A stretch of 31,611 nucleotides of DNA from a virus: IMG/VR virus record IMGVR_UViG_3300048835_000486, positions 1 to 31,611 of that record. One strand, 5' to 3'. The position numbers and the translations under genes were made by a program. The stretch's first letter is position 1. The number at the start of each line of letters is the position of its first letter. Below, piece after piece: positions 3,651 to 24,605 of this stretch. The notes beneath the pieces are model-generated. The model was given only the letters and a program-made list of their open reading frames with translations. It was not told the origin of the DNA and ran no database searches.

Positions 3651-3905
3651 ATGTCTCTGTATCTGAAAGCCGTCCTCTACGCTGTCCCCGTCCTCATCGT
3701 CTTGGCTGTCGGGGGATATATCTGGTATCTCAAGGAACAGCTGAACGGAACACTGAAAGAAGTGTCCGATCTCAGAACGGAGGTGACAAATGTTCGTGAA
3801 AGCATCGACAATCTTCAGACGCGCCTGGGTATCGAGGACACTGTCCGCCGCACTCCTGACCCTGCTGGCGTCTTGCGCGACAGATACTCCCGTCCCACGG
3901 AGTGA
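3651..3905 (+). CDS. Rz-like inner-membrane spanin (84 aa)
   Basis: The frame is open upstream, but ATG 3651 has AAGGAG with 7-base spacing and is followed at once by an N-terminal transmembrane segment (residues about 5-26, KAVLYAVPVLIVLAVGGYIW). A periplasmic coiled coil follows (KEQLNGTLKEVSDLRTEV, then NVRESIDNLQTRLG), and a Pro/Arg-rich tail. This is the architecture of class II signal-anchor i-spanins such as lambda Rz, although it is shorter. An Rz1-like lipoprotein gene begins inside it in the +1 frame, the diagnostic arrangement. It would join the o-spanin across the periplasm and disrupt the outer membrane after the endolysin has degraded the wall. Unusually, it is not next to the endolysin. 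Confidence 0.85.
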   Translation: MSLYLKAVLYAVPVLIVLAVGGYIWYLKEQLNGTLKEVSDLRTEVTNVRESIDNLQTRLGIEDTVRRTPDPAGVLRDRYSRPTE

Positions 3906-4047
3906 CAGATGCGCAGGCTGGAGAGTCATCCTCATCAGCCCGGCTGATCAGCTGACGAGAGGAACTGCTGAGCAGATCCTTTCGCACAACGAAACAGGTC
4001 TGGCCTTTCATTGCTGGAACGATAAGACCCAGAATGTGAGATCCTAG
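3790..4047 (+). CDS. Rz1-like outer-membrane lipoprotein spanin (85 aa)
   Basis: Starts inside the Rz-like gene in another frame with its own GGAGG site 6 bases from ATG and runs 142 bases past the Rz stop. Residues 18-29 (LSAALLTLLASC) form a signal peptide with lipobox L26-A27-S28-C29, so processing would leave a 57-residue lipoprotein starting at Cys29. The mature part is short and Pro/Arg-containing at first (TDTPVPRSD), followed by a C-terminal module (GWRVILISPADQL...TAEQILSHNETG) like those of other phage Rz1-type proteins. Two further Cys (CAGW and HCW) could form a disulfide. Partner of the i-spanin; confidence is high because lipobox, overlap and context agree. Confidence 0.85.
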   Translation: MFVKASTIFRRAWVSRTLSAALLTLLASCATDTPVPRSDRCAGWRVILISPADQLTRGTAEQILSHNETGLAFHCWNDKTQNVRS

Positions 4048-4388: not shown

Positions 4389-4546
4389 GTATGGCCCACG
4401 CCATGATCCTCATAGCCAAACTAGAGGAAGAGTTTGAGCGGCAGCAAGACGTTGCCGCTCACAACGGCAGCTTTCAGGGAGGAATGATCATCAGCGCGCA
4501 GCAGGATCTTATCCGCAAAATCAAGGAGGCTTTGCTCAAGCCATGA
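4385..4546 (+). CDS. Small helical protein (53 aa)
   Basis: Fills the gap between two recognised genes with ATGA overlaps at both ends (4385-4388 and 4543-4546), which strongly supports it being real despite its size. The product is a charged amphipathic helix pair: SMAHAMILIAKLEEEFERQQ and a second helix (ISAQQDLIRKIKEALLKP). No membrane segment or metal site. Function unknown. Confidence 0.7.
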   Translation: MSMAHAMILIAKLEEEFERQQDVAAHNGSFQGGMIISAQQDLIRKIKEALLKP

Positions 4547-4893
4547 CTGTCTATATCGACGACATGTATCGCTATCCTCTGGGCCAATTCGGCAGGATGA
4601 AGATGAGTCACATGTTCGCCGAACAGGATGAAGAACTTCACCTGATGGCCGACAAGATAGGTGTCTCACGTCGTTGGTATCAGGGAGATCACTATGACGT
4701 CTCCATGACGAAGCGCGATTTGGCGATTCAGAACGGGGCCGTCCCGGTGACTCTTAATATCGCAGCGAAGATGATGCTCCAGAAAAGATCGAATGGAGTC
4801 CTTCCCAAACCCGGAGAAGTGATCGATCCTCGGGTGAAGAAACTCGTGGCTGAAACCAAGCCCGGAAGAATTATCAGGAGAACCTCGCGATGA
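4543..4893 (+). CDS. DUF4031-like protein (116 aa)
   Basis: The N-terminal 75 residues have the conserved pattern of the DUF4031 family: TVYIDDMYRYPLGQFGRMK, then SHMFAEQDEELHLMADKIG, then RRWYQGDHYDVS. The family is widespread in phages and actinobacteria and has no established function; the conserved Asp, His and Trp residues suggest a metal- or nucleotide-binding site (inference). The C-terminal 40 residues are basic and look less conserved. It is translationally coupled on both sides, directly upstream of the SNF2 helicase with an ATGA overlap, so co-expression with the helicase is likely. Confidence 0.85.
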   Translation: MTVYIDDMYRYPLGQFGRMKMSHMFAEQDEELHLMADKIGVSRRWYQGDHYDVSMTKRDLAIQNGAVPVTLNIAAKMMLQKRSNGVLPKPGEVIDPRVKKLVAETKPGRIIRRTSR

Positions 4894-6335
4894 GCCAGAC
4901 CTACACCAACGGCAGACTTACCAAGCCGAATCCTCAGCTCCCCCCGCCGAGGGATCACCAAATCGAAGCGCTCAAATTCACGCGGAAAAAGCGGAGACGG
5001 AACTACTTCGGCCTGTTCATGGATCCAGGCACCGGAAAGACCAAGGTTGCGCTGGAGAAGATGGCCGAACTCTACAACAATGACACCATCGAGGTCGCCC
5101 TGGTGTTCGCGCCTAATGGTGTCCACACGCAGTGGATCGAGGAACAGGCTGCCGAACACTGCCCGGTTCCCTGGCGGGGCATCATCTGGAGTCCACATCG
5201 CACCCGCAAGTGGAAGGACGAAACTCTCTACACTCTCAAGAAGTCGGACAGTCTCATTATTGTTTCCATGAATTGGGAGTCCCTCACCACGAAGGACGGA
5301 CTGAACTTCTGCCGGTGGCTGCTGAAGAACAAACTCGTCGGTATCTGGGCCGACGAGAGCAGCCGGATTCGCAACCCGAAGGCGATTCGCACGAGGAGGG
5401 CTCTTGAGTTAGCGCCGCTTGCTGAGACGAGATCCATTCTCACTGGGACTCCCATCGCAAAGGGAATCGAGAATCTCTGGGCTCAGATGCAATTCCTCAG
5501 CCCAGAGATTCTGGATTGCAGAACCTTCGTACAGTTTAGAAGCCTCTACTGCAAAACCCGGCCAGTACCCGGCCGCAGGGGGGCTGTGATGATCTCTGGA
5601 TATCAGCGAGTCGACGAACTAATGTCGCTGATCAAGCCGCACATCTTCACGAAAACAAAAGAGGAATGTCTCGACCTCCCGCCCAAGATCTACACGAAAT
5701 CTCCCGTGATGATGACCGCGGTTCAAGAGAAAGCATACCAGACGATGCGAGACGAGTTGATCGTCGAATTGTCGGAACTGCAGAAAGTCACAGTCGCACA
5801 TCTCATCTCGGCCAGGGCCAAGTTGCGGCAGATCGCTATCGGCTTTATCCTGGACAAGAACAGGGTCGGCAATCCTCTGCCCACAATGAGATACAAGAGG
5901 GCTTTGGAACACATCGAAGAAGCCCCGGGAAAGATCATCCTGTGGACGTCTTTTCGCTGGTGCCTAGCAGAGTGGGAGCGTCTGCTAACCTACCACGACA
6001 TCGGGTATGTTCGCTACCAGAAAGGCGATAACGATTCCATCAAGTTATGGAAGAGGGATCCAAAGAGAATCGTGTTTCTGGGCAACCCTCACTCGGGCGG
6101 CATCGGATTGAATCTTGCTAATGCAGACACGATGATCTATTTCAACAACACTGACGACGCCGAGATTCGGTGGCAGTCCGAAGACCGTGCTCACCGTATC
6201 GGGCAGACGGAGCACCTGAATATCATTGATCTATTTTCGCCTGGGACTGTTGAAATAAAGATGCAGAAACAGCAGGCCGCCAAAGAATCCCTGGCGAACA
6301 TTGTGATGAGAAGAGGGTGGAGAGCCGCACTTTAA
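4890..6335 (+). CDS. SNF2/SWI2-family DNA helicase-translocase (481 aa)
   Basis: Superfamily 2 ATPase with all main motifs: Q-like RDHQIEALKF (21-30), Walker A DPGTGKT (45-51), Walker B DESS in IWADESSRI (about 155), motif III LTGTP (about 185), a C-lobe with KIILWTSFRWC, motif V GGIGLNLANADTMIYF (about 403) and motif VI with QSEDRAHRIGQ (about 435). Length fits compact phage SNF2 proteins, with no extra nuclease or HIRAN domain. It would use ATP to translocate on double-stranded DNA, probably in replication, recombination or displacement of bound proteins. AGGAG lies 9 bases before the ATG. Walker B is DESS where DEAH/DEGH-type SNF2 proteins have His at the fourth place, which is common in phage members. 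Confidence 0.95.
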   Translation: MSQTYTNGRLTKPNPQLPPPRDHQIEALKFTRKKRRRNYFGLFMDPGTGKTKVALEKMAELYNNDTIEVALVFAPNGVHTQWIEEQAAEHCPVPWRGIIWSPHRTRKWKDETLYTLKKSDSLIIVSMNWESLTTKDGLNFCRWLLKNKLVGIWADESSRIRNPKAIRTRRALELAPLAETRSILTGTPIAKGIENLWAQMQFLSPEILDCRTFVQFRSLYCKTRPVPGRRGAVMISGYQRVDELMSLIKPHIFTKTKEECLDLPPKIYTKSPVMMTAVQEKAYQTMRDELIVELSELQKVTVAHLISARAKLRQIAIGFILDKNRVGNPLPTMRYKRALEHIEEAPGKIILWTSFRWCLAEWERLLTYHDIGYVRYQKGDNDSIKLWKRDPKRIVFLGNPHSGGIGLNLANADTMIYFNNTDDAEIRWQSEDRAHRIGQTEHLNIIDLFSPGTVEIKMQKQQAAKESLANIVMRRGWRAAL

Positions 6336-6383: not shown

Positions 6384-6432
6384 GCTTACGGCGACGCCCA
6401 TGGGGGGCGGCGTTCTCCTGGGGATATACGAC

Positions 6433-6915
6433 ATGCTGGTCTTGTTTGAATTCGAAGGTCGGGATTTCGTGGTGCGGGCCACGCCGTTTGGGAAGAACGG
6501 GTACCATCACGGCAGGGTGCTCTATGCGGATCCGGTGAAGGTGCCGTTGGAAGAACGAGTTTCACTCCCCCCGGCTGTGGTGGAAAAGCCGAAGCCCGTG
6601 GAAAAGCCGAAGCCCGTGGAAAAGCCGAAGCCCGTGGAAAAACTGACGAGCAGGGCGATCGACACGGCGCGTCGTCACCCGAATCTGGCCATCTGGGATT
6701 CTCAGGCCAAGGCTTTCTGGAATTGGTTGGTGGAGAAGAATAAGTTGAGCGGGCTGGTCACCTCGCTCCACCAAGAATTTCGTGAATCGCGAGGGGAAAA
6801 GCGGTCGCCCGGCCTTGCCTTTCAGGTGGCCGCGTGTGGGGAACGTCTGGGCATGTGGAAGGTCATCGAGAACAAGAAGCGCACCCGGTTCAGCCTGCAA
6901 GTGGCGAAGGCGTAG
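6433..6915 (+). CDS. Hypothetical protein with Pro-Lys linker repeats (160 aa)
   Basis: The frame is open from a TTG at 6355, but that overlaps promoter-like P3; ATG 6433 has GGGGA at 8 bases and begins a clean domain (MLVLFEFEGRDFVVRATPFG). Two parts are separated by a flexible linker: an N-terminal beta-rich module of about 45 residues ending YADPVKV, a linker of VEKPKP repeats (codons at 6580-6642), and a C-terminal helical domain (DTARRHPNLAIWDSQAKAFWNWL ... RTRFSLQVAKA). The repeat is a stiff, charged spacer like those joining domains in TonB-type proteins, but there is no membrane anchor here. I do not recognise either domain. Confidence 0.7.
   Translation: MLVLFEFEGRDFVVRATPFGKNGYHHGRVLYADPVKVPLEERVSLPPAVVEKPKPVEKPKPVEKPKPVEKLTSRAIDTARRHPNLAIWDSQAKAFWNWLVEKNKLSGLVTSLHQEFRESRGEKRSPGLAFQVAACGERLGMWKVIENKKRTRFSLQVAKA
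6580..6642 (+). repeat. 18-bp tandem repeat, three and a half copies
   Basis: Unit GTGGAAAAGCCGAAGCCC repeated exactly at 6580, 6598 and 6616, then a partial copy to 6642. It encodes VEKPKP. Perfect identity between copies indicates recent expansion or slippage; copy number changes would keep the frame and lengthen or shorten the linker by six residues. Confidence 0.95.
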
Positions 6916-6920
6916 CGTGA

Positions 6921-7241
6921 ATGGATATGGATATTCGTGGCCGGGAATGGAACCCGGCGATCAAGAAATTGATGATGTCGCCGGGGGCATATCGCGCTCG
7001 TGCGCTTGTCCGCAGAAACATAGCCGCCCAGGATCTTGTCGAGGGGGACACATGGGCGGCCCACAACAATCTGCGTGAAGCGGAACGTCTTGAGAGGGAG
7101 GCTCATGCGTATCAAGGGGATGATGTGGCAAGAAGTCCGCAAGTGGAACCGAATCCGGAAGGAACTCGGATACCTGCCCCACTACCACCACGTCGGCCGG
7201 ATACGGATGGAAGTCCGGTTCGTCCTATGCCGAAACGATAA
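6921..7241 (+). CDS. Hypothetical protein (106 aa), long overlap with next gene
   Basis: The first 70 residues look like a genuine protein: charged and helical (WNPAIKKLMMSPGAYRARAL, then TWAAHNNLREAERLEREAHAY). The last 35 are Pro/Arg-rich (TRIPAPLPPRRPDTDGS), which could be a disordered tail or simply the shadow of the overlapping gene that starts at 7105. Ribosome site is weak (GAAGG). The overlap of 137 bases is unusual for this phage, where genes overlap by 1-14 bases apart from nested pairs. Family unknown. Confidence 0.5.
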   Translation: MDMDIRGREWNPAIKKLMMSPGAYRARALVRRNIAAQDLVEGDTWAAHNNLREAERLEREAHAYQGDDVARSPQVEPNPEGTRIPAPLPPRRPDTDGSPVRPMPKR

Positions 7242-7493: not shown

Positions 7494-7900
7494 TGTTCGA
7501 ACCATATCCGGCTATGCCGATTCCTCATCAAGATGCCGCAAAGGAACTGAAATGGGTAAGACGGTCATTCTCCGCAATGTTCTCCAACACGGAGCATCTG
7601 GCAGACTCTCTGCTGTTCATTCGCTCAAAGCAGCAGGAACCCGTGTTCCTAAAGGCCATCAGCGAAGTGTTGATGAAGCTTCACCCAAGCGTCACACCAT
7701 CGCTCGAAGCAATCTACCGGAAAAGTCCCCCCGGAGGGATTCGCGTGGTGTTCAGCCCGGACAGCAGGGTTCGTCCGTCCTTCAGATGGAAGGGGATAAT
7801 AGCTCCCGCCGTCTACGTAGCGCCGGATCTGGACAACATCGTACTCATGCGGGGGGCGCTGCTATATCGCGACACCGCTGGGTGGAGCATTCACACGTGA
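7493..7900 (+). CDS. Hypothetical protein (135 aa)
   Basis: ATG at 7493 overlaps the upstream TGA and is preceded by AGGAGG with about 10-base spacing. Helical N-terminal half (DAAKELKWVRRSFSAMFSNTEHLADSLLF begins after a Pro-rich start) and a beta-rich C-terminal half (GGIRVVFSPDSRVRPSF, then AVYVAPDLDNIVLMRGALLY). No membrane segment or known motif. Family not recognised. A second frame is open across the same region from 7468, but its own ribosome site and codon pattern favour it only from 7897 onward. Confidence 0.65.
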   Translation: MFEPYPAMPIPHQDAAKELKWVRRSFSAMFSNTEHLADSLLFIRSKQQEPVFLKAISEVLMKLHPSVTPSLEAIYRKSPPGGIRVVFSPDSRVRPSFRWKGIIAPAVYVAPDLDNIVLMRGALLYRDTAGWSIHT

Positions 7901-8100
7901 ATGGCACCATATTCAAGAATCGGCGAATCCACCCGTCGCGAATCTTCCTGGCCCTGAATCGCACGAAAAACAGTGTGCGAGGGGTGCTGGTAGAAGCCGA
8001 CGGAACCTCGATCCAGGCCACGGTGACCCTGGAGTCGTTGACTGTCGACTTCCCTTTCGTGTTCTGGATGCCGCCCCATGGAGATAACGATGTCCGATAA
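7897..8100 (+). CDS. Small hypothetical protein (67 aa)
   Basis: GTG at 7897 overlaps the upstream TGA as GTGA, with GGAG about 9 bases away. The product (VNGTIFKNRRIHPSRIFLAL ... VTLESLTVDFPFVFWMPPHG) reads as a small beta-rich protein. The frame remains open much further upstream (to 7468), but that part is antisense-like low-quality sequence overlapping a better gene, so the short version is chosen. Family unknown. It shares 11 bases with the next gene. Confidence 0.5.
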   Translation: MNGTIFKNRRIHPSRIFLALNRTKNSVRGVLVEADGTSIQATVTLESLTVDFPFVFWMPPHGDNDVR

Positions 8101-8659
8101 CATCGGCGTGAGCCGCGCCCGCCTGATCCAGGAATTGTCCGACGGCTTGGTGTTCAAGATGTCGGGAAGTCAGCTGGACGAGTTTCGGGAATTCGTTTTC
8201 AAAGCGATGTCCTCGATAGACTCAGCCGAAACCCTCGATGTGGTGCTCGCCATAAAGGGGTTCGCAGAAGATAACAGGGGCGGCCATACTGGAGAAAGCC
8301 GGTTCGAGTCCATATTTTCGGTTCCCAAAGATGCGGCAGAAAGTATCATGAACGATACCTTCCTGAATTCCGCGACGTCTGTACTGGAAGATGATCAGCT
8401 TTCAACTCTAGCCAACACCACCGGATCCATCTTCTGCCGTCAGAAGGAGCATCTTAGTAGTGACCCAATTGAGGTGGAGAGCAATTCTATCAGCGATATT
8501 CTGGTAAACCTAATTCTGAATCTGGTGCGGAGACGAAAACCCGGATTCAACCTAGACAGTAGGGCGAATTCCAATTTCTTGATTATTCACTACCGCTACA
8601 GAGACATGAAGGGGGTCATTCGCACCCACTTCTCTGCCATGTGGCAAATGCGGAATTAA
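8090..8659 (+). CDS. Hypothetical protein (189 aa)
   Basis: ATG 8090 is preceded by GGAG with 6-base spacing; the alternative ATG at 8078 sits on that ribosome site, so 8090 is chosen. Mostly helical soluble protein (VSRARLIQELSDGLVFKMSG, SQLDEFREFVFKAMSSIDSA, VNLILNLVRRRKPGFNL) ending with a beta segment (NSNFLIIHYRYRD). No catalytic motif seen. It is slightly more AT-rich than its neighbours, especially in the 3' half. Last gene before promoter-like P4. Family not recognised. Confidence 0.7.
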   Translation: MSDNIGVSRARLIQELSDGLVFKMSGSQLDEFREFVFKAMSSIDSAETLDVVLAIKGFAEDNRGGHTGESRFESIFSVPKDAAESIMNDTFLNSATSVLEDDQLSTLANTTGSIFCRQKEHLSSDPIEVESNSISDILVNLILNLVRRRKPGFNLDSRANSNFLIIHYRYRDMKGVIRTHFSAMWQMRN

Positions 8660-8667
8660 ATGATTGT

Positions 8668-8696
8668 TTGCAGCTCGTAACGGACCGTGGTACGGT
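8668..8696 (+). promoter_or_regulatory. Promoter-like element P4 (TTGCAG-17-TACGGT, extended -10)
   Basis: TTGCAG (8668-8673), a 17-base spacer and TACGGT (8691-8696) preceded by TG. It sits in the 83-base gap before the first secreted-protein gene, leaving a leader of about 40 bases that contains a small GCCCG/CGGGC hairpin. The best -35 of the four related sites. Confidence 0.55.
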
Positions 8697-8742
8697 GGCG
8701 TTGCCCGGCATATCGTCGGGCGTAAAGGGAAAGTGTCTTATC

Positions 8743-9180
8743 ATGACCAATCGCTTCATCTTGGCGGCCGCGGTCGCCCTCCTGGCCCTCCCCGCCTACG
8801 CGGCGGAAATCGGGGTTGGCGTCGGCTCGCTCCAGACGGGTGCCGGTGCGGCCGGCGTGACCGGTGCGCAGTCGTCCTCGCAGGGGGGCTCCGTCACGGC
8901 CCTCGCCGGCATCTCGGCGGGCGGCGTTCGTTCGGGCCAGACCTCGCAGACCCAGGGCCTCGCCGGCGGTCAGGCTTCCTGTGTGAGCGGTCCGAGCTGC
9001 ACGTCCATCGGCGAGTACTCCGGCACGTCGTCCACGACGGGCGGTGTGGTCCATGGCGGCTTCTCGCTCGGCGGCGCGGCCGGAGTGCAGTCCGGTCAGG
9101 CGCAGGGCGTCGCGGGCGGCATCGGTGCGGGTCAGGCGGGCACGAACTACTCGTTCGGCAGCATCTTCGCCAACCCGTGA
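8743..9180 (+). CDS. Secreted Gly/Ala/Ser/Gln-rich protein (145 aa)
   Basis: The frame is open from 8641, but ATG 8743 begins a textbook Sec signal peptide (MTNRFILAAAVALLALPAYA, predicted cleavage AYA|AEIG). The 125-residue mature part is low-complexity, with repeated GxG, GQ and SGQ patterns (VGSLQTGAGAAGVTGAQSSS; then GGVRSGQTSQTQGLAGGQ) and only two Cys, in CVSGPSC. It is unlike any enzyme; the composition resembles extended beta or surface/periplasmic proteins. Base composition is clearly more GC-rich than the gene before it, with strong preference for C/G third positions. Promoter-like P4 lies directly upstream. Function unknown; a role at the envelope is inferred only from export. Confidence 0.8.
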   Translation: MTNRFILAAAVALLALPAYAAEIGVGVGSLQTGAGAAGVTGAQSSSQGGSVTALAGISAGGVRSGQTSQTQGLAGGQASCVSGPSCTSIGEYSGTSSTTGGVVHGGFSLGGAAGVQSGQAQGVAGGIGAGQAGTNYSFGSIFANP

Positions 9181-9324
9181 TCTGACGAGGGCGGGCGTCC
9201 GCAAGTCGCCCGCCTAGAGATCCGGCCCCTCAACGGGTAGCGATCCGTCCCGTTCCGGATAAGTCCTGGTGGCCCCAACTGAGGGGACGGGTCATCAGGC
9301 ATCTTCTTTCAAGGGAAAACCGCT
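9181..9324 (+). promoter_or_regulatory. Structured intergenic leader with several inverted repeats
   Basis: A perfect 8-bp stem GGCGGGCG/CGCCCGCC (9190-9197 with 9207-9214) follows the stop codon; it has no T-tract, so it is a doubtful terminator. Further on, CCCCTCA (9226-9232) is complementary to TGAGGGG (9280-9286), and CCGTCCC (9245-9251) to GGGACGG (9284-9290); the two pairings compete for 9284-9286. A ribosome site AAGGGA precedes the next ATG. This could be a regulated leader or processing site; no known riboswitch class is recognised. Confidence 0.4.
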
Positions 9325-10056
9325 ATGCAGAAAACCATCTTTCATGCGAGCGTGTATCTGGGTGTAGCGCTCGGCCTCATGGCCGCGATCGTCAGCCCAG
9401 CAAGCGCGCAGGTCAGCGCCACCGGAACCGGGCAGGCGGCGGCGGGAGCCGATGCATCTGCCGGGGCGGCGAGCCGGTCCGGGGCGAGCGTCACCCAGAA
9501 CTACTACCAGTCTGGTGAGTCACGTACCGTCGTGGACTACACCGGCGGCACGAACAACCGCACGACCGTTCAGGGGGGAACCCAGGACACCTATCGAGCG
9601 ACGATTCGTAACACGCCGGATGTCTACGCCCCGAATGTGAGCGGCGGCACCAATTCGTGTCTCGTAGGCATCAGCGGTGGTGGCTCCGTCGCCGGCTTCG
9701 GTATCGGGCTCGGCGGAAATTGGTCCGATCCGGATTGCGAGCGTCGTCAGCTCGCGGCCCTGCTCTACAACACGGGTCAGCAGAACGTGGCGCAAGAAGT
9801 TCTGTGCGCTTCCAGGGAAGTCCGCGAAGCCCGCCAGCGGATGGGCCAGCCCTGTCGTGCTGATCAGACTCAACAGATTGCGCAGCAGCCGGTGATGGTC
9901 GCCAACACGACCGCCGGCCCTGTCCAAGTCATCGGTGGCGGAGCTGTCCCCCAGCCCACCGCCTCCGTGAACACCGTGCCGGACTGGTGCCTGACGGCCT
10001 CCCCCCAGGAGCGTAGGCGCTATTCCCAGTGCGCGGGTCCGACAATCGTGCGATAA
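9325..10056 (+). CDS. Secreted cysteine-containing conserved phage protein (243 aa)
   Basis: ATG with AAGGGA at 8 bases; signal peptide of about 29 residues (ending SPASA|QVSATG). The mature protein starts with a Gly/Ala/Ser-rich stretch, continues with a central domain (SCLVGISGGGSVAGFGIGLG, then DPDCERRQLAALLYNTGQQN, then CASREVREA), and ends in a Gln/Pro-rich part with WCLTASPQERRR. Six Cys, an even number, suits disulfide bonding in the periplasm. The central pattern (C...GGS..GFG...G...C.rr..A..L...G...A...LC) is one I associate with exported proteins in several proteobacterial phages, function unknown. High GC, like the preceding gene. Lies between a structured leader and a strong terminator, so expression may be independent. 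Confidence 0.85.
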   Translation: MQKTIFHASVYLGVALGLMAAIVSPASAQVSATGTGQAAAGADASAGAASRSGASVTQNYYQSGESRTVVDYTGGTNNRTTVQGGTQDTYRATIRNTPDVYAPNVSGGTNSCLVGISGGGSVAGFGIGLGGNWSDPDCERRQLAALLYNTGQQNVAQEVLCASREVREARQRMGQPCRADQTQQIAQQPVMVANTTAGPVQVIGGGAVPQPTASVNTVPDWCLTASPQERRRYSQCAGPTIVR

Positions 10057-10094
10057 TCCCCGAACCCCCAATCGCCGATCGTCTGTCGCAACTC

Positions 10095-10125
10095 GGGCGG
10101 GGCCGCAAGGTTCCGCCCATTTTTC
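10095..10125 (+). terminator. Intrinsic terminator with GCAA tetraloop
   Basis: GGGCGGGGCC (10095-10104), loop GCAA, GGTTCCGCCC (10109-10118): ten paired positions including two G-U pairs, closed by a stable GNRA-type loop and followed by ATTTTTC. It lies 39 bases after the secreted-protein stop and ends 15 bases before the next ATG, so downstream genes need read-through or another promoter. Confidence 0.85.
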
Positions 10126-10139
10126 TAGGATCAGCAGCC

Positions 10140-10319
10140 ATGCGCCGCGTCACCTACAAGGTCACCGTAGACGTACCTGACAGCCTGACGAATACGGAAA
10201 TGGCCGAGTACATCAAAGACGAAGTTGACAGCGGCGGGGGGAATCGTGAACCCCTGGATCCGCTATTCCTGAAGAAGAACACCGTCGTTAAGATTCACAA
10301 CGTGAAGGGATCCAAGTGA
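10140..10319 (+). CDS. Small hypothetical protein (59 aa)
   Basis: ATG 10140 has AGGA at about 9 bases. The protein has a beta-alpha-beta look: RVTYKVTVDVPDS, a helix NTEMAEYIKDEVDSGGG, and a final strand NTVVKIHNVKG. Small proteins with this layout (VxVPDxxxxxEMxEYIxxAV...LxxxTVxV) are common in phages of proteobacteria, with no known role. Located directly behind a terminator; ends in a TGATG overlap with the next gene. Confidence 0.7.
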   Translation: MRRVTYKVTVDVPDSLTNTEMAEYIKDEVDSGGGNREPLDPLFLKKNTVVKIHNVKGSK

Positions 10320-10507
10320 TGGAGACGGTGGATCCACATCTTCTTCGGCTCATGCAGCTCGAAAAAGAAACTGACGAATACTTGGCGGAAATGAAGAGGT
10401 GGGACCAAAGACACCGCCGGACACTCCGCCACAGCATCTGGCTTCTTTGGGCGGCTACGATATTCAATGTCGTGGCAGGGGTTTTCAATCTGCTGGGTGT
10501 TTTCTGA
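10319..10507 (+). CDS. Small tail-anchored membrane protein (62 aa)
   Basis: Starts at ATG 10319 (TGATG overlap; a GTG at 10316 is the alternative) with AAGGGA at 8 bases. The first 40 residues are a charged helix (RLMQLEKETDEYLAEMKRW, then DQRHRRTLRHS), followed by one C-terminal membrane span (IWLLWAATIFNVVAGVFNLL). The cytoplasmic helix probably forms a coiled coil. It could be an envelope accessory or an antiholin-like factor; family not recognised. Confidence 0.65.
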   Translation: METVDPHLLRLMQLEKETDEYLAEMKRWDQRHRRTLRHSIWLLWAATIFNVVAGVFNLLGVF

Positions 10508-10776
10508 TGCCCTGCCCTCGCTGCAACAGTCATCGCCTGTGGGATGATAATCTTGCATGGGGATGCTGCGATTGCGAATTCTTTACTACCGGCGAGATTC
10601 GCAATGTCGGCCACACCAGCCGGGATGTTTTTCACACACCAGGGCCGAAGCCCGGCACCTGGAACCCTGAAAGGAATCGAGATGCAACGTCTACTGAAAG
10701 AAGCGTGGTGGGTGACGAAACTGGTGATCTGCCTGCTGGCGATGGCCTATCTGACATTGACGAAAGCGAAAGCTGA
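10507..10776 (+). CDS. Small Zn-ribbon-like protein (89 aa)
   Basis: ATG at 10507 overlaps the previous TGA. The N-terminus is a compact metal site, CPRC (residues 3-6) and CCDC (about 23-26), with a beta-rich intervening stretch, typical of a zinc ribbon. The rest is polar and acidic at the end (DIDESES), probably disordered. The last 95 bases overlap the signal peptide of the barrel protein in another frame. It could bind nucleic acid or protein; no family name can be given with confidence. Confidence 0.6.
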   Translation: MPCPRCNSHRLWDDNLAWGCCDCEFFTTGEIRNVGHTSRDVFHTPGPKPGTWNPERNRDATSTERSVVGDETGDLPAGDGLSDIDESES

Positions 10777-11281
10777 CGAAACCCCCCGCGCTGGGCAGTT
10801 CTTCGTCAACGTATTCGCCGGGATGATGGTGTTCGACAGCACCGTCACTGTCGGCGGCATCAAGCTGATCGACCAGGGCGGCGACGCTAGCCAGGGGGGA
10901 ATTCGTGCAGGCTGGATCAACGGTGGCGCCTTCCATCTAGGAGTAGAAGTGGAGGGCTTGCTGGCGAGCGGACGTTCCCGTGCGTACATCCCGGCAGGCA
11001 ATGCCACCGGCGGGGTCACGGACATCTACAGCCGGGACGTCAGCGGGGGATATGGAATCTACGGCCGCATCGGTTGGCGCACACGAGGGAACAGCATCAT
11101 GTTCCTGCGGCCGGGTATCCAGTATCTGAATACGAGCGCGGGTTGGGACACCGCCCCGGCGATCGGCGTTTCCGCTGAAGTCCCCATTGAACAAGACTGG
11201 GCCATGCGTCTCGATGCGACCTACGCCAAGGGTGACATCGAATACTACAACGGCACGATTGGCATCGTATTCCGCTTCTGA
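10682..11281 (+). CDS. Outer-membrane beta-barrel protein, Lom/OmpX-like (199 aa)
   Basis: The frame is open from 10544, but ATG 10682 has AAGGA at 6-7 bases and starts a signal peptide (WWVTKLVICLLAMAYLTLTK, cleavage near AKA|DETP). The mature chain of about 168 residues alternates polar and hydrophobic residues with aromatic girdles (GQFFVNVFAGMMVFDSTVTV; VSGGYGIYGRIGWRTRG; ATYAKGDIEYYNGTIGIVFRF). It ends in Phe, the signature recognised by the Bam insertion machinery. Size fits an 8-stranded barrel like OmpX or lambda Lom. Such phage proteins are made from prophage or during infection and have been linked to adhesion, serum resistance or receptor masking; which applies here is unknown. Last gene before the rightward terminator. 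Confidence 0.8.
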   Translation: MQRLLKEAWWVTKLVICLLAMAYLTLTKAKADETPRAGQFFVNVFAGMMVFDSTVTVGGIKLIDQGGDASQGGIRAGWINGGAFHLGVEVEGLLASGRSRAYIPAGNATGGVTDIYSRDVSGGYGIYGRIGWRTRGNSIMFLRPGIQYLNTSAGWDTAPAIGVSAEVPIEQDWAMRLDATYAKGDIEYYNGTIGIVFRF

Positions 11282-11306
11282 AGCGCCACGGGAAAATCGC
11301 TTAGGG

Positions 11307-11339
11307 AGCCCGGCTGGGAGCGGCCGGGCTTTCTTTTTT
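11307..11339 (+). terminator. Intrinsic terminator ending the rightward genes
   Basis: AGCCCGGC (11307-11314), 8-base loop, GCCGGGCT (11323-11330), followed by TTCTTTTTT. Perfect 8-bp GC-rich stem and T-tract 26 bases after the barrel-protein stop. On the other strand the stem is not followed by T residues, so it should act only on rightward transcripts. Confidence 0.93.
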
Positions 11340-11646
11340 GCCCAAAACCAGGGAGCATGCCTAGGCATATATCAACAGCCGCTAAGGCATTCCCAGAGCC
11401 TTTTAGCCGCCGGCCAGTACTACCCTAGCGCCCTAGGGGCCAGGGGGGCTCCTACGCCCCTCTAAATAGGCTGCATTTTAGGTCGCCGCCACCAGGGCTT
11501 AGGCTCCCGGCGCGGGCAAGGGGCGGAGGATAACCCCCCGCCCCTTCAACGGCCCGGTCTGGTCGATTAGCTTCTAGAGCGTTGTCCTAGCTAGACCCAT
11601 GGGGATGATGTCCGGTTTTCGGATATGACCAGCGCGGGCCGAAGTT
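11340..11646. other. Non-coding convergent junction, rich in CTAG palindromes and hairpins
   Basis: No convincing gene in about 300 bases between the two converging gene blocks. It holds a perfect 12-bp palindrome ATGCCTAGGCAT (11357-11368), a bulged hairpin GCTAAGGC/GCCTTTTAGC (11381-11407), the sequence TACTACCCTAG (11418-11428) recalling the -10 of P1, a CCCTAGGG palindrome (11431-11438) and a hairpin 11518-11546. CTAG is usually scarce in bacterial and phage DNA, so several in 100 bases stand out. No T-tract terminator for the leftward genes was found. Confidence 0.7.
11518..11546. other. Strong hairpin between converging operons
   Basis: AAGGGGCGG (11518-11526) and CCGCCCCTT (11538-11546) are perfect 9-bp complements with an 11-base loop. 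It has no T-tract on either strand, so it may be a factor-dependent stop or an RNA 3'-end stabiliser for the leftward late transcript, which ends at 11647. Confidence 0.6.
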
Positions 11647-11955
11647 CTACTTCTGCGAATCTTCGAACAGGCGCTGTCTGAGAAGATATCCTTCCAGCTG
11701 CCACAGAGGCTTGAACGCATTGTCGAATGCGTACCGCTTCCCGACCTCGGCGTCGTAGTTCTCCGGGCTGGCCGGAGCAGACACGCCGGTGGACAGCCAG
11801 CCGTTCTCCATCGTGATGATGCAGATGGTGAGCTGATCCCGCAGGACGTAGGACACATTGCTGATTCGAGCCCGGATGGACTCTTCGGTCACACGCGGCG
11901 CGGTCTTGGTGGCGACGACAGCCTTGGCTTCATCCAGACTCAGTTCGGGTTCCAT
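11647..11955 (-). CDS. Gp49-family phage protein (N4 Gp49 / Sf6 gp66-like, 102 aa)
   Basis: Starts with ATG behind AGGAG (6-base spacing). The body fits the small phage family named for N4 Gp49 and Sf6 gp66: TKTAPRVTEESIRARISNVS, then LTICIITMENGWLSTGVSAP, then NYDAEVGKRYAFDNAFKPLW and LEGYLLRQRL. The family's function is not established; members are small soluble proteins found widely in phages of Gram-negative bacteria. It is the last leftward gene, separated from the tailspike by a hairpin, so it may be made at a different level from the virion genes. Confidence 0.88.
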   Translation of the reverse strand: MEPELSLDEAKAVVATKTAPRVTEESIRARISNVSYVLRDQLTICIITMENGWLSTGVSAPASPENYDAEVGKRYAFDNAFKPLWQLEGYLLRQRLFEDSQK

Positions 11956-11988
11956 GATATTCTCCTGGTGATGGGGGGCTAGAAGTTC

Positions 11989-12017
11989 TCGGCAGCGTTC
12001 CCCCCGCCCGCTGCCGA
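11989..12017 (-). other. Hairpin between tailspike and Gp49-family gene
   Basis: TCGGCAGCG (11989-11997) and CGCTGCCGA (12009-12017) are perfect 9-bp complements with an 11-base loop. Read leftward it follows the tailspike stop by 16 bases but has no T-tract. It could attenuate transcription or protect the upstream mRNA. Confidence 0.65.
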
Positions 12018-12033
12018 ATTCAGAAACACGATG

Positions 12034-14016
12034 TTAGATCTGCGCCCAGGTCAGGGACATCGTGCGATGGTGGAATGCCTCGAGGTTCACATCGAAGCTC
12101 GTGCTGTTCACGCTGGGCGGGGCTTCGTGCGTCAGCGTAAATGTCAGAACAACGGTGTGGTCTCCGGTGCCTCCGGTCACTTCCACGGCGGCTGCCCCGG
12201 ACATACCCGCATCCGGAGTCTGCGCTTCACGCCAGATATCAACGAGATAGGAGGGTGAATCACCGTTGAAATACCGAGAGTACAGGAAGGTCATACGAGC
12301 CGTGTACCTGCGAGCTCGTGGCGTGGTGCTGTAGGATGCAGCCACGTCGATCTCGAATTCCAGTCGAGAGCCGGATCCTGAGATGGCTGCCGGAACCACC
12401 ATGGTCACCTGGAACTTGGTTTCCGTGCCACTGGACAATCTGCCCGAGATAGGAATCGGGATATTGCCCGCGATAGGATCAGTTGAGCTGACCGACTTGG
12501 AACGGATTCTGCCGTTGAACTCGGCCCTGTGATAGTTATTCCAGTGACGCTCGGCGATGATGACGCCCCCCGGATTCGCCGCAGAGGTAGACCAGCGGAA
12601 AGGCACCGCATCATCGGAAGATCCGCCTCGTACGAAGATAATACGGGAGGGATCATTGAAGTCGTGTATGATGTGGGCCGCCCCGGTCAGGTGAAGATCA
12701 TTCACCAGAATAACTGTGGGGGAGGAAGACCCGCCTTCAGCCCGGACAATCAGCTTGCCAGTGTTGTAGATCAAGTTGCCGGGTCCGAACTGCTGGTTCG
12801 TTCCCACGGCGTTGCCGCTCTTCAGGACCACTGTCCCCTCGAAATTGCAGTTCATTACCTGCGACAGGCCGAACTTTCCGGCCTCGAGATCCACGCCATT
12901 CGGATTCGAGACGGTGTTGCCCCAGAACTTGCACGCGCTCATCTGGACACCGACGGTGCTTGCCAGTATGAACCCGGTGCCGTTCGTTCGAACACGGCAC
13001 CCTATGAAGTGCGCGTCGGCGACCAGCAGCGTGTTCGTGAACGCGGCCCCGACGTTGCTGATCCAGTCACAGTCGATCCAGGTCTGCCCCCCGATGGCGC
13101 CGGTTGTGACAGTACCGTTCTCGGTCTCTCCTGTCCAGTGCTGGCCGGATACCGTAGCGCCCGTGAATCGGCAATTCAGGAACTCCGCCTGGGCGGTCAT
13201 GTGGATGCTGCAATGTTCTTTTATGCTGTTCGCATTGAACGTGATGTTGCGAACAGACAGCATCCAATCTGCCGAAGTGTCATTCGAGACCCAGGCGTTG
13301 CTCGCCATCAGGTAGCGAACATCTCCGGCGTTGATTCCGAGAAGTGTGGCATCTCCGCTCGAGACAATGTTCAGCCGCTTGTCGGGAAGGACCCAATTCG
13401 ACAGAGCGTAGGTTCGCCCGCTGGCGACTTCGATGGTTCCGGACACCGGCGCGTAGACTGTCGACTTGTCGAAGGCCGGCTTGTCGTCCGTTGCTCCGTC
13501 ACGAACTGCCCCGAACATTTCGGGCTTGACGATATCCGTCTTCAGTTCGTACCAGTTTCCGGCAGTGTCCTGGAACCGGCCGTCGTGCGAAGGCTGGCTC
13601 ACGACTCGAACATACGGAGCCTGACCGCCATCGCCTGGAACGGCGTAGGCGGCTGTCGATATGACAGCGCCGATGGGTAGCGCCAGCGCCGCCACCAGAG
13701 CCGCGGCTTGAGCAACGGTGCTGAAGACCAGACCAGCTCCTCGCGCGACGGCGAACCGCACTTGATCCATGAGAGTCATCCGGCGATTTTCATCATCTTG
13801 AAAGACCGGAAGGATTTCATCGCCAGTCAGGCTAGTCACAAGAGGGTAGTCGGGATTGGCGGGTCCGGGGTACTTCACCCAATTCCCGCTCTGCCGCATG
13901 TACGGATCCCCGTTGTTCGGGGCATCCACAAGACCCTGGCCTGGTCCGGCCAGGAACACGTTGACCACCGGAATGGGAAAGGCCGGCTCGACCTTCACCT
14001 GTATGACGTCGGACAT
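12034..14016 (-). CDS. Tailspike / tail fibre with beta-helix (660 aa)
   Basis: Excellent ribosome site (AAGGAGG, 5 bases). Residues 1-90 form a virion-attachment head, with an Ala-rich helical segment at 95-125. A pectate-lyase-3-like beginning of a right-handed beta-helix follows (FGAVRDGATDDKPAFD, 168-183), then long Asn/Gly/Val-rich beta-helix sequence to about residue 520. The C-terminal 130 residues (from about SGRLSSGTETKFQVTMVVPA) form a separate beta-sandwich-like domain with repeated T-F-V strands, possibly for trimerisation or sugar binding. Depolymerase activity is plausible, but no catalytic residues can be assigned by eye. Probably a trimer that recognises or degrades host surface polysaccharide. 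Confidence 0.88.
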   Translation of the reverse strand: MSDVIQVKVEPAFPIPVVNVFLAGPGQGLVDAPNNGDPYMRQSGNWVKYPGPANPDYPLVTSLTGDEILPVFQDDENRRMTLMDQVRFAVARGAGLVFSTVAQAAALVAALALPIGAVISTAAYAVPGDGGQAPYVRVVSQPSHDGRFQDTAGNWYELKTDIVKPEMFGAVRDGATDDKPAFDKSTVYAPVSGTIEVASGRTYALSNWVLPDKRLNIVSSGDATLLGINAGDVRYLMASNAWVSNDTSADWMLSVRNITFNANSIKEHCSIHMTAQAEFLNCRFTGATVSGQHWTGETENGTVTTGAIGGQTWIDCDWISNVGAAFTNTLLVADAHFIGCRVRTNGTGFILASTVGVQMSACKFWGNTVSNPNGVDLEAGKFGLSQVMNCNFEGTVVLKSGNAVGTNQQFGPGNLIYNTGKLIVRAEGGSSSPTVILVNDLHLTGAAHIIHDFNDPSRIIFVRGGSSDDAVPFRWSTSAANPGGVIIAERHWNNYHRAEFNGRIRSKSVSSTDPIAGNIPIPISGRLSSGTETKFQVTMVVPAAISGSGSRLEFEIDVAASYSTTPRARRYTARMTFLYSRYFNGDSPSYLVDIWREAQTPDAGMSGAAAVEVTGGTGDHTVVLTFTLTHEAPPSVNSTSFDVNLEAFHHRTMSLTWAQI

Positions 14017-14380: not shown

Positions 14381-15229
14381 TCAGGTCAGGGGCGGCCAGG
14401 GAAGTCCGAGGATGCCGTGGGTCACGGGGCCAGCGATACCGTCTTCCGTGATGCTGGCGGCCCTCTGCTGTTCCCTTACAGCCTGCATCGTCTGCGGGCC
14501 GTAGGCGCCGTCTGCGGGAAGACCCAGGCGAACCTGGAGCGTGCGAACAGCATCCCCCCGGCTGCCGAGCCGCAGAGGAGGCACGTAGGGGGGTGGTGCC
14601 CCGCCGCCGCGCGCATGCCGTTCGTACGAGCTCACGATTTTGGAGTCGTAGTGGTTCTCCCTGTAGGCTTCACCGTTGTAGGCGCGAGCCAGCCGGGCAG
14701 CCGCCTGAGGATCCGGCAGCTTGCGCATGTCGGGTTCGAGCTTCTTGGCCCGAATGAATCCGGCGAACGACCGCAGCTGACCGGCCATGCCCGAAACCTG
14801 GTCCTCCACCATTGACTGGACAGAGTCATAGCCGACCATCTGGTAGTTGAACCCCATGATCTGGAAGGCGCCCCACGAAGTCGCCTTTAGTGCGGCATCA
14901 ACATCCAGAGCCATGGCATCGTTGAGGCGCTCATATTGATGTTCACCCGGACGACCATAGAGCGAACGATCCCATTTCTGGCTGGAGAGGAGAACGCCGT
15001 TCCTGTCCTTGGCCCCGGAGAACTTGCCCTTGGTCTCGCGATGAAAGACGTGGGCCTCGTAGAGAATCTTGGGTCTACCGTCCGGTAAGAACCCCTCTCC
15101 AGAAGCCTCCACTTCTGCGAATGCACGAACCGCAGCCTCCGGAACGTTGAGCCCTTCCGCGACTTGTTGAAAATCCGCATCGGTCAGTTCCCTGATTGCG
15201 GTGGTGTTGATGAACACGATTTCGTTCAC
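14381..15229 (-). CDS. Endolysin: N-acetylmuramidase with C-terminal peptidoglycan-binding domain (282 aa)
   Basis: GTG start, GTGA-overlapped with the upstream gene, AAGGAG nearby. Residues about 25-205 match the N-acetylmuramidase family (formerly DUF3380): VPEAAVRAFAEVEASGEGF with the probable catalytic Glu41, PKILYEAHVFHRET, SWGAFQIMGFNYQ, and ARAYNGEAYRENHY near the end. After an Ala/Pro-rich linker, residues about 218-275 form a PG_binding_1 domain (RLGSRGDAVRTLQVRLGLPADG). It cleaves the glycan strands of peptidoglycan. There is no signal peptide, so release through a holin is required. Most family members from phages of Gram-negative hosts carry the binding domain N-terminally or lack it; here it is C-terminal. 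Confidence 0.92.
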   Translation of the reverse strand: MNEIVFINTTAIRELTDADFQQVAEGLNVPEAAVRAFAEVEASGEGFLPDGRPKILYEAHVFHRETKGKFSGAKDRNGVLLSSQKWDRSLYGRPGEHQYERLNDAMALDVDAALKATSWGAFQIMGFNYQMVGYDSVQSMVEDQVSGMAGQLRSFAGFIRAKKLEPDMRKLPDPQAAARLARAYNGEAYRENHYDSKIVSSYERHARGGGAPPPYVPPLRLGSRGDAVRTLQVRLGLPADGAYGPQTMQAVREQQRAASITEDGIAGPVTHGILGLPWPPLT

Positions 15230-15678
15230 GTAACTTCTCCTTGTCTTTCCACTACACGAAGTAGCGGGGGTTTTGGAATCTTGAGCGGAACAAAGTCTTC
15301 CGTTTTCGCAGCCCCTGAATTTATCAGGGCTTGTCTGGCATTATTCGCCGCATGGTACGCATCTCGCCAGTCACCATACTGTTCGTACATCTTTATTCGC
15401 TGGAGTTCCACAAGCTGTTCTGTCTCACGCAGTCTAGCTCGAAACGCCTGGATGTCGACCCGAAGACTTTCTATCTCGTGTGCTTGTCTCTCCCACAGTT
15501 CTCGCTGATCTTCTCGAATAGACTTCTGCATCTGGTCATTCAGTGACGCGATGCGGGCATCCCGACCTCGGAAGTACGTGACTAGCATAATGCCCATCGC
15601 AATGAACACTACCCCCCAAGGACCATAAGCCGCCAGCATGGCACTGGAGAATATCGTCCCTATAGTGCCAGCCTCCAT
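15226..15678 (-). CDS. Membrane-anchored coiled-coil protein in lysis cassette (150 aa)
   Basis: AAAGGA precedes ATG. One transmembrane segment near the N-terminus (residues about 17-36, YGPWGVVFIAMGIMLVTYF), then a long charged helix (about 38-105: RDARIASLNDQMQKSIREDQ, ERQAHEIESLRVDIQAFRAR) predicted as a coiled coil, and a Pro-rich end. It directly precedes the endolysin with a GTGA overlap. The layout also resembles an i-spanin, but an overlapping lipoprotein gene is not visible here and a better Rz/Rz1 pair exists at 3651-4047. A pinholin, antiholin or lysis-timing role is possible. Confidence 0.7.
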   Translation of the reverse strand: MEAGTIGTIFSSAMLAAYGPWGVVFIAMGIMLVTYFRGRDARIASLNDQMQKSIREDQRELWERQAHEIESLRVDIQAFRARLRETEQLVELQRIKMYEQYGDWRDAYHAANNARQALINSGAAKTEDFVPLKIPKPPLLRVVERQGEVT

Positions 15679-15680
15679 AC

Positions 15681-16151
15681 CTAGACATCCTTTCTAGTAG
15701 CGAGGCGGATGCTGTACTCCTCCTCCCACAAAACGTGCAGCGCAACGTAGACATTACCTATCGAGCAAGCCAGATAGATTGCTGCGGTAGGATTCCAGGG
15801 GGTGGCGATTAGCGAACCGCAGGTCATCGAACCCCAAAGACAAGCCAGTAGGCCGGCGGTCAGCCAACGGATCCATTTTCCGCAGTGCTTCATTCGCTCT
15901 CCCGAATGACTGGTTAGGGCCATGCCGCTCTGTAAAGTTCCACCTAGAAGACCAGCCCACTGCCAGAAAGCCTCAGGCTGGACAGAAGAAAGAACCAGCA
16001 AAGATCCGAACGGCGGGCCGCCCTTCCAGTCCAACCACTGCAGAAAAAAGAACATGGCAGTAGCCACCCCGAATAGAACCTCGAATATCCAAGGTTCTCT
16101 CCTGAATATCCAGCGAAAAGTGCGATAGGCTCGCTTGACTGGTGTCGGCAT
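15681..16151 (-). CDS. Multi-spanning membrane protein, holin candidate (156 aa)
   Basis: Start chosen at ATG 16151, where GGGAG is 8 bases upstream; ATGs at 16157 and 16166 are possible but poorly spaced. Basic N-terminus (KRAYRTFRWIFRREPW), then hydrophobic segments at about 21-40, 62-80, 95-115 and 122-140, i.e. three or four spans, and a charged C-terminus (EEEYSIRLATRKDV). Located two genes upstream of the endolysin between two other membrane proteins. Holins are small multi-span proteins in this position, so this is one of three candidates; 156 residues is on the long side for the class. No family motif recognised. Confidence 0.65.
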   Translation of the reverse strand: MPTPVKRAYRTFRWIFRREPWIFEVLFGVATAMFFFLQWLDWKGGPPFGSLLVLSSVQPEAFWQWAGLLGGTLQSGMALTSHSGERMKHCGKWIRWLTAGLLACLWGSMTCGSLIATPWNPTAAIYLACSIGNVYVALHVLWEEEYSIRLATRKDV

Positions 16152-16187
16152 CCACATGGCTCCCATCCCTGTATTGTTGACACATAG

Positions 16188-16451
16188 TCACCTATCTAGC
16201 CCAGAGACAACACGGGACGCACATGACCGAAGAGCGTACATGAACTCTTCGTGCCTATTCTCGGCATTTACTCGCAACGCCCAGAAAAACATTCCATTCA
16301 GCACCACGATCATCGCCAGGAGAGCCAGCATGTTAGCATCAAGTCGCGTGACTGTATGTTTCACCGCCTCCAGCACACCCGCCTTCATAGCCGGATCCTC
16401 CACATCTCTGGGTGCGGGGGGTTTCGGCGTGATGACGGGTGCCTCGCTCAT
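16188..16451 (-). CDS. Small single-span membrane protein, holin/antiholin candidate (87 aa)
   Basis: ATGA overlap with the fibre gene, and a very strong ribosome site (GGAGGGGGG) 3 bases from ATG. N-terminal 40 residues are Pro-rich then helical (DPAMKAGVLEAVKHTVTRLD), followed by one span (41-59, MLALLAMIVVLNGMFFWAL) and a charged helix. This resembles the single-span class III holins or antiholins (T4-T-like topology), or a tail-to-membrane factor. It is the first of three membrane proteins before the endolysin. Confidence 0.65.
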   Translation of the reverse strand: MSEAPVITPKPPAPRDVEDPAMKAGVLEAVKHTVTRLDANMLALLAMIVVLNGMFFWALRVNAENRHEEFMYALRSCASRVVSGLDR

Positions 16452-23381: not shown

Positions 23382-23764
23382 CTGCCGATCCTCACGATGG
23401 CGTTCTTCCAGAACCCTTCTTCGATGGACTCCAGACAAGACATGCGACCCGATAGGGTATGAAGCATTTTACCACGCCCGGCATAGACACCGCAATGGGT
23501 GGCTGCCTTTATCCCGAGTCTGAGAGCCAGGATATCGCCCACTTCGATGGCCTCTCGCGGGATGATTTTCCACTCCCCCCAGCGGCCTGAAATGTAGTCC
23601 TTCATGACATCGGTATCGCCCGAGTTCTCGTAGCCATCGTACCTGGGTATGAGATTGTGGAGCTCTTCGGCATGGAACAGCCACACGAGTCCCCAGCAAT
23701 CACATCCCTGAAAGGTTGATCCACGATTCTCGTATGGAATCCCGATGTATGGCGAAAGATTCAT
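23369..23764 (-). CDS. Tail tip NlpC/P60 cysteine peptidase, gpK-like (131 aa)
   Basis: ATGA overlap with the L-like gene. NlpC/P60 fold with catalytic Cys23 in CDCWGLVWL (Cys21 nearby), His90 in ATHCGVYAG and a third polar residue at His102 (KMLHTLSG). Corresponds to the C-terminal half of lambda gpK, here without the N-terminal Mov34/JAB domain. It probably cuts cell-wall peptides during genome entry or acts in tail-tip maturation. Position between L-like and J-like genes is as expected. Confidence 0.92.
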   Translation of the reverse strand: MNLSPYIGIPYENRGSTFQGCDCWGLVWLFHAEELHNLIPRYDGYENSGDTDVMKDYISGRWGEWKIIPREAIEVGDILALRLGIKAATHCGVYAGRGKMLHTLSGRMSCLESIEEGFWKNAIVRIGRWKS

Positions 23765-24249: not shown

Positions 24250-24605
24250 TACGAAAACACCTCCTCGAGAGTGCCGGACACTTGAATGACCGGCTTTGTG
24301 TCTGCGCTGCCTGCGATCGCGGGGGGCTCCTTCCAGCGGACAAGAACCTGCGCCTCAGTGTACGGGTTTTTGACGTAGAAGGGTTGAGCGCCGGCCAGAC
24401 AATCCTCGTTAAAGAATTGCAGCACGGCAGCCTCGTCCTCCCAATCCATCAGCCATTGAACCGTTATCTCGGTCCAGGTCTTGGTGAACCTTCTGCGAAC
24501 CTTCGGATATCCGTCATCGACTGAGCTGCGGATAAGCGAAGGGACAGGCTGCCGTGACCATGAACGCGGGCACGAGAAGGGCCATGTTGGATAGGTTTCG
24601 GACAT
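24249..24605 (-). CDS. Minor tail protein, gpM-like (118 aa)
   Basis: GGGGAGGG ribosome site 4 bases from ATG and TAATG overlap with the tape measure stop. Compact beta-rich sequence with many aromatics: YPTWPFSCPRSWSRQPVP, KVRRRFTKTWTEITVQWLM, then EDEAAVLQFFNEDCLAGAQP and FYVKNPYTEAQVLVRWKEPP. The size, position immediately after the tape measure and alternating strands match lambda gpM or distal-tail type proteins that cap the tail-tube end. Assignment relies on order as much as sequence. Confidence 0.72.
   Translation of the reverse strand: MSETYPTWPFSCPRSWSRQPVPSLIRSSVDDGYPKVRRRFTKTWTEITVQWLMDWEDEAAVLQFFNEDCLAGAQPFYVKNPYTEAQVLVRWKEPPAIAGSADTKPVIQVSGTLEEVFS

Follow-up and report, generated by a model that had tools for sequence, protein, structure and literature searches.

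A predicted exported protein pair, P1 and P2, and a putative outer-membrane barrel, P5, together form what gene order among relatives suggests is the conserved core of a gene group in IMGVR_UViG_3300048835_000486. We tentatively favor reading these three genes as an envelope module whose site of action is the outer membrane and whose likeliest role is that of a late accessory to lysis and phage exit. The original prediction had described a cassette directed at the host envelope; of the six genes here, the core of three recurs in other phages while the six together do not. A limited search of open-access text found no published description of the P1-P2-barrel group, in line with the earlier statement that no named system is known to have this exact make-up.

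The exported-gene group and its components

The window analyzed here is the entire 31.6-kb IMG/VR record. It is probably a fragment of a siphophage genome, because a DNA polymerase A gene is truncated at its left end (1-705). Early genes, namely this polymerase and a DEAD-type helicase (4890-6335), occupy the + strand and virion genes the - strand, and the exported-gene group lies at the junction of these two convergent blocks. Four related contigs are used for comparison: G001 (IMGVR_UViG_3300048587_000396) and G002 (IMGVR_UViG_3300032144_000018), which came from the P2 search, and G003 (3300048833_000212) and G004 (3300035200_000436), which came from a later profile search. Coordinates use inferred gene starts; visual inspection and hydrophobicity served to recognize signal sequences.

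8743-9180, + strand: P1, 145 aa, predicted to be exported, Gly/Ser/Ala/Gln-rich; homologues precede P2 in G001-G004
9181-9324, + strand: P1-P2 intergenic region with strong hairpins; the part at 9260-9330 is conserved with G001
9325-10056, + strand: P2, 243 aa, predicted to be exported, four invariant Cys; member of phrog_20531
10095-10118, + strand: intrinsic-terminator-like hairpin and T-run at the boundary between P2 and the downstream ORFs; consensus match only
10140-10319, + strand: 59-aa ORF outside the conserved unit; weak likeness to phrog_8773 (E 0.0087)
10319-10507, + strand: 62-aa ORF with a single C-terminal hydrophobic segment, outside the conserved unit; no relative found
10507-10776, + strand: Zn-ribbon ORF (CPRC...CCDC), overlapping the barrel gene by 95 bases
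10682-11281, + strand: P5, 199 aa, signal sequence and predicted outer-membrane beta-barrel (OMP_b-brl superfamily)
11303-11334, + strand: intrinsic-terminator-like hairpin and T-run at the end of the group; consensus match
12034-14016, - strand: spike
14381-15229, - strand: muramidase endolysin
15226-15678, strand opposite to P1-P2-barrel: i-spanin-like ORF
16448-18118, - strand: tail fiber
18120-23438, - strand: J-like gene
24605-27016, - strand: tape measure

The ORFs of the two proteins originally described as secreted and of low complexity are intact. Each begins with a Sec-type signal sequence (MTNRFILAAAVALLALPAYAA in P1; ending ...VSPASAQ in P2), from which export is predicted, and both mature parts are of low complexity, with glycine accounting for 28% of P1. 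P1 carries two conserved cysteines and a conserved C-terminal end (FANP/FAQP), and four cysteines of P2 (C112, C138, C161, and C177) are invariant across 72 proteins. As had been noted, both genes are richer in GC than the gene before them (0.73 and 0.65 vs. 0.50), a difference that extends to third codon positions (0.87 and 0.75 vs. 0.63) and is most marked in P1. A Gly/Ala-rich composition alone pushes GC up. In the comparison with relatives, differences at codon position 3 are about twice as frequent as at positions 1 and 2, the pattern that would be expected for proteins under selection.

Structure prediction for P2 was poor from 3 alignment rows, but from 72 rows the signal segment and a helical core were predicted confidently. 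Foldseek matched the predicted P2 only to hypothetical phage proteins in a viral library, one of them a known family member, and gave no significant match in the PDB. Two candidate features were rejected. Glycine lags in P1 show no consistent excess over shuffles, as a glycine zipper or periodic repeat would, and the supposed conserved RNA hairpin between P1 and P2 beats shuffles in G001 only (z -4.5, compared to -0.9 in the window).

By itself, P5 is a weak barrel call, reaching 12.8 bits (E 0.14) against Pfam PF13505 (OMP_b-brl), below the curated cut-off of 28.7. However, its G002 homologue (42% identity) scores 31.3 bits (E 2.7e-7), above this cut-off, and its G003 homologue scores 27.6 bits (E 3.8e-6), just under it. 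Through these homologues, an outer-membrane barrel is nonetheless probable for P5.

The membrane, Zn-ribbon, and barrel ORFs are likewise open and of the kinds originally described. The tail-anchored membrane protein of the original prediction is recognizable as the 62-aa ORF, and the Zn-ribbon ORF has a homologue in G001 (77% identity over 56 aa) that is remote from the P1-P2 genes there; no counterparts of the 59-aa and 62-aa ORFs were found. These three ORFs look like local insertions, and we left them out of the unit because the homologue is remote from the pair or none was found. The proposed regulatory signals fared less well. No sigma-70-like site lies near 8668, where the promoter had been placed; the only match in 7500-12500 is weak, falls at 8322, and does not exceed the shuffled expectation (mean 1.7). 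As for the two terminators said to bound the group, the site at 11303-11334 does end it, but the other strong site is internal, after P2. Because six terminator-like sites were found vs. 4.2 expected from shuffles, these hairpins are weak evidence by themselves.

Gene order and orientation in relatives

P1 lies directly upstream of P2, in conserved order, in all five contigs (the window and G001-G004). These contigs are uncultured and possibly incomplete, and our collection scans use short patterns that may miss relatives. In G003, a single strand reads J (end), tail fiber, P1, P2, barrel, M15 endolysin, and an ORF with a lipobox-like N-terminus. At this locus (L115), P1 spans 5177-5623, P2 ends at 6423, the barrel (6428-6967) starts 4 bases past the P2 stop, and the M15 endolysin (PF08291, 8.5e-25) begins at 6983. 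The order in G001, again on one strand, is fiber, TM protein, M15 endolysin, P1, P2. G002 is otherwise a different phage, in which only six window genes were matched, including P1 (69%), P2 (61%), and the barrel (42%). We regard P1, P2, and the barrel as belonging together because they are contiguous in G003 and make up three of the six matches in G002.

It is also conceivable that the barrel is one moron and the exported pair another, adjacent by chance and with no joint function. P1-P2 occurs in G001 and G004 with no barrel detected, the G002 barrel is ~24 kb away from the pair, and three ORFs plus a terminator-like site intervene in the window. Still, homologues of P5 were found in G002 and G003 only, so that all three barrels sit in genomes carrying P1-P2, once in direct succession; this is suggestive, within pattern-limited scans, and we consider the chance arrangement improbable. 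For the three-gene core, the sequences point to exported products, homologues with no virion structural assignment, and conservation of the group.

The pair in G001 and G003, and probably in G004, is convergent with early genes and downstream of late genes, the late gene immediately upstream being the endolysin in G001 and the fiber in G003. In G004, the pair is preceded by a cut ORF whose end merely resembles a fiber C-terminus (E 0.035). By contrast, P1-P2-barrel in the window shares its strand with the early genes, while again sitting at the early/late junction. The unit therefore appears to have been flipped in the window by a local inversion, although no inverted repeats of at least 11 bases and at least 1.5 kb apart were found flanking the segment. 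Transcription away from the virion genes, part of the original argument for an envelope function, is thus true of the window but does not transfer to the system, because two relatives, probably three, have the pair on the late strand.

The P2 family in marine and other phages

P2 matches the profile of phrog_20531 (PHROGs v4; family of unknown function) at E 3e-11 over residues 28-186, and 13 of 14 aligned members match this profile as well. Like P2, members have a signal sequence, a low-complexity N-terminal part, and a four-Cys core; named examples are HTVC023P gp45, CRP-810 gp53, and Mosig_00202. The family occurs in Pelagibacter phages (HTVC023P, 033P, 115P, 202P, Baldr, and Mosig), Roseobacter phages (CRP-810 and CRP-207), EBPR podovirus 1, an uncultured Mediterranean phage, and Achromobacter phages JWAlpha and JWDelta, the JWDelta member (JJJA_0025) having been found by tblastn. 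With a pelagiphage profile, it was detected at at least 600 places in IMG/VR, and every match listed was a relative. One candidate, L004, was discarded as its NWSDPDCE match arose by chance and the gene was unrelated on reading. Searches of genome_contigs found no bacterial source for either P2 or the barrel.

Among 74 pelagiphage-type loci, 73 encode an N-terminal hydrophobic segment in the P2-family protein, 49 have a partner of about 450-500 aa encoded downstream, which is exported in those cases that were inspected, and a small single-TM protein is present at 48. The window differs in that P2 has P1 upstream instead of this downstream partner, and P1 itself was seen in only five uncultured contigs by short-pattern and profile scans. 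The P2-family gene is accessory, because HTVC027P lacks it while infecting the same host as HTVC023P. A published transcriptome covers HTVC022P and HTVC027P, the latter being the phage that lacks the gene.

Candidate roles at the cell envelope

Signal sequences and an even number of conserved cysteines (two in P1, four in P2) are consistent with an envelope module. In the sequence of events we envisage, P1, P2, and the barrel would each carry a Sec signal and be exported from the cytoplasm. Once in the periplasm or on the cell surface, P1 and P2 would form disulfides as they fold, and the barrel would insert into the outer membrane. The module may then act late, during lysis and exit, by disrupting or remodeling that membrane. 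The window's copy of the unit would have been inverted across the early/late convergence point and so would now read with the early genes. We place an accessory to lysis and exit first because P1-P2 is late and beside a tail fiber and/or endolysin in two, probably three, relatives. In seven phages (Mosig, CRP-810, CRP-207, ctXG6705, HTVC023P, HTVC033P, and ct7L0027), the P2-family gene also has a gene annotated as holin, lysozyme, chitinase, or M15 within ~3 kb, counted as raw proximity.

However, several observations run against a lysis role. The unit in the window is on the early strand, 4 kb from the phage's endolysin and spanin-like genes, which are encoded on the opposite strand, and in JWDelta and JWAlpha the P2 core sits among early/middle genes. 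Per-family counts recognized no lysis gene near the P2 gene in HTVC202P, Baldr, S28C10, HTVC115P, or EBPR podovirus 1. Across the 74 pelagiphage-type loci, only a minority of the neighbors are lysis genes and DNA polymerase A is equally common, in raw per-family counts that ignore kinship.

These early positions would fit a trio that coats or alters the host surface, blocking adsorption or injection by related phages or keeping released virions off debris. Such surface modification or superinfection exclusion would also suit low-complexity exported proteins encoded together with an outer-membrane barrel, an accessory gene present in HTVC023P and missing from HTVC027P on the same host, and a distribution among phages with unlike virions, which would tie the gene to the host rather than to morphotype. 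Yet the late-operon site beside endolysins in G001 and G003 argues against it, and described exclusion proteins in Pfam and PHROGs show no similarity. We judge this reading somewhat unlikely, though it is a close rival of the lysis role. Of the functions originally suggested, a supplement to lysis appears slightly better favored than either receptor masking or superinfection exclusion because the relatives' genes adjoin endolysins.

The position of the pair directly 3′ of the tail fiber in G003, and probably in G004, could instead mark P1 and P2 as accessory adhesive or decoration proteins of the particle, for which a glycine-rich, low-complexity P1 would be apt. We consider this very unlikely, as N-terminal Sec-type signals (with hydrophobic segments at nearly all P2-family loci) are ill-suited to cytoplasmic assembly, the family spans differing virion types, and no PHROG structural match was found.

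Comparison with known systems bears on the remaining possibilities. The nearest published analogue in kind is provided by the phage curli (type VIII secretion) modules known from pelagiphages (PMC9599517), which likewise are phage-borne and direct exported, low-complexity proteins at the host surface. P1 and P2 might then be amyloid-type subunits with the barrel as exporter. But CsgG was found in none of five records (the window, itself a fragment, G001, G002, HTVC023P, and Mosig), while control genomes were positive, and P1 and P2 have no Pfam match at E up to 1 and so no curlin repeats. Moreover, no significant repeat period was found in P1, and the barrel is one small OMP_b-brl protein rather than a CsgG-type pore. 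Curli-like fiber secretion thus seems extremely unlikely.

Spanins (Rz/Rz1 and unimolecular; PMC6139136) resemble the trio in being exported envelope proteins that adjoin endolysin genes. P1 and P2 differ in having cleavable-type signals with neither lipobox nor transmembrane anchor. None of P1, P2, and P5, which also has a cleavable-type signal, shows the lipobox of an o- or u-spanin or the coiled-coil inner-membrane anchor of an i-spanin, and the window encodes a separate i-spanin-like ORF (15226-15678). Lambda Lom/Ail-type proteins are, like P5, small phage-encoded outer-membrane barrels. However, the only model matched is the general OMP_b-brl one, by P5 itself below the cut-off, and the barrel is linked to P1-P2. 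Neither P5 nor its G002 and G003 homologues matched an Ail/Lom family in Pfam.

A broader proposal, which we consider unlikely, is that P1-P2-barrel could be a self-contained machine, neither spanin nor curli, in which the Gly-rich P1, the four-Cys P2, and a dedicated barrel jointly breach or remodel the outer membrane. P2 would be its widespread component, teamed with different partners in marine phages that are abundant. P2 connects an obscure window with a very abundant family of exported marine-phage proteins of unassigned function. Should the trio, or its counterpart in pelagiphages, prove to act on the outer membrane, it would offer a testable way into how phages infecting SAR11 and other Alphaproteobacteria exit their hosts or mask them.

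Lysis and lipoprotein-like genes of the window

The late strand of the window carries a lysis module, in which the single-TM ORF has a homologue in G001, a related uncultured phage contig. A simple scan of the window detected a single lipoprotein-like ORF, which is on the early strand.

14381-16451 (-), lysis module; within it, an endolysin (muramidase and PG-binding)
15226-15678 (-), i-spanin-like ORF (TM at the N-terminus, plus a coiled coil)
15681-16166 (-), holin-like, multi-TM ORF
16188-16451 (-), single-TM ORF
3790-4047 (+), 85-aa ORF with lipobox (LLAS|C)

DUF4031 and the barrel gene

In G002, another related contig, a single open frame (L009 18820-19761, -) spans the DUF4031 ORF and the outer-membrane barrel gene with no stop between them, whereas the DUF4031-like gene (4543-4893) and the barrel gene are separate in the window.

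Surroundings of P2-family genes

A second exported cluster with a gene of the P2 family (four-Cys exported proteins) was observed in L118, where an exported low-complexity protein, another exported protein and a lipoprotein flank this gene; these partners are unrelated. In JWDelta and JWAlpha (Schitoviridae), the P2 core lies inside a 300-aa protein whose gene sits among early/middle genes, although the position elsewhere is late.

L118 4880-7589, exported cluster around the P2-family gene (low-GC phage contig)
L122 7419-8351, 300-aa protein with P2 core
L021 6499-7884, acidic exported protein of about 450-500 aa (relatives in L028-L107)

In 49 of the 74 marine loci, the P2-family gene is followed by this large acidic exported protein; the version in Pelagibacter phage HTVC023P had no match in Pfam or PHROG. 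The acidic protein encoded downstream is a candidate functional partner of the P2 family.
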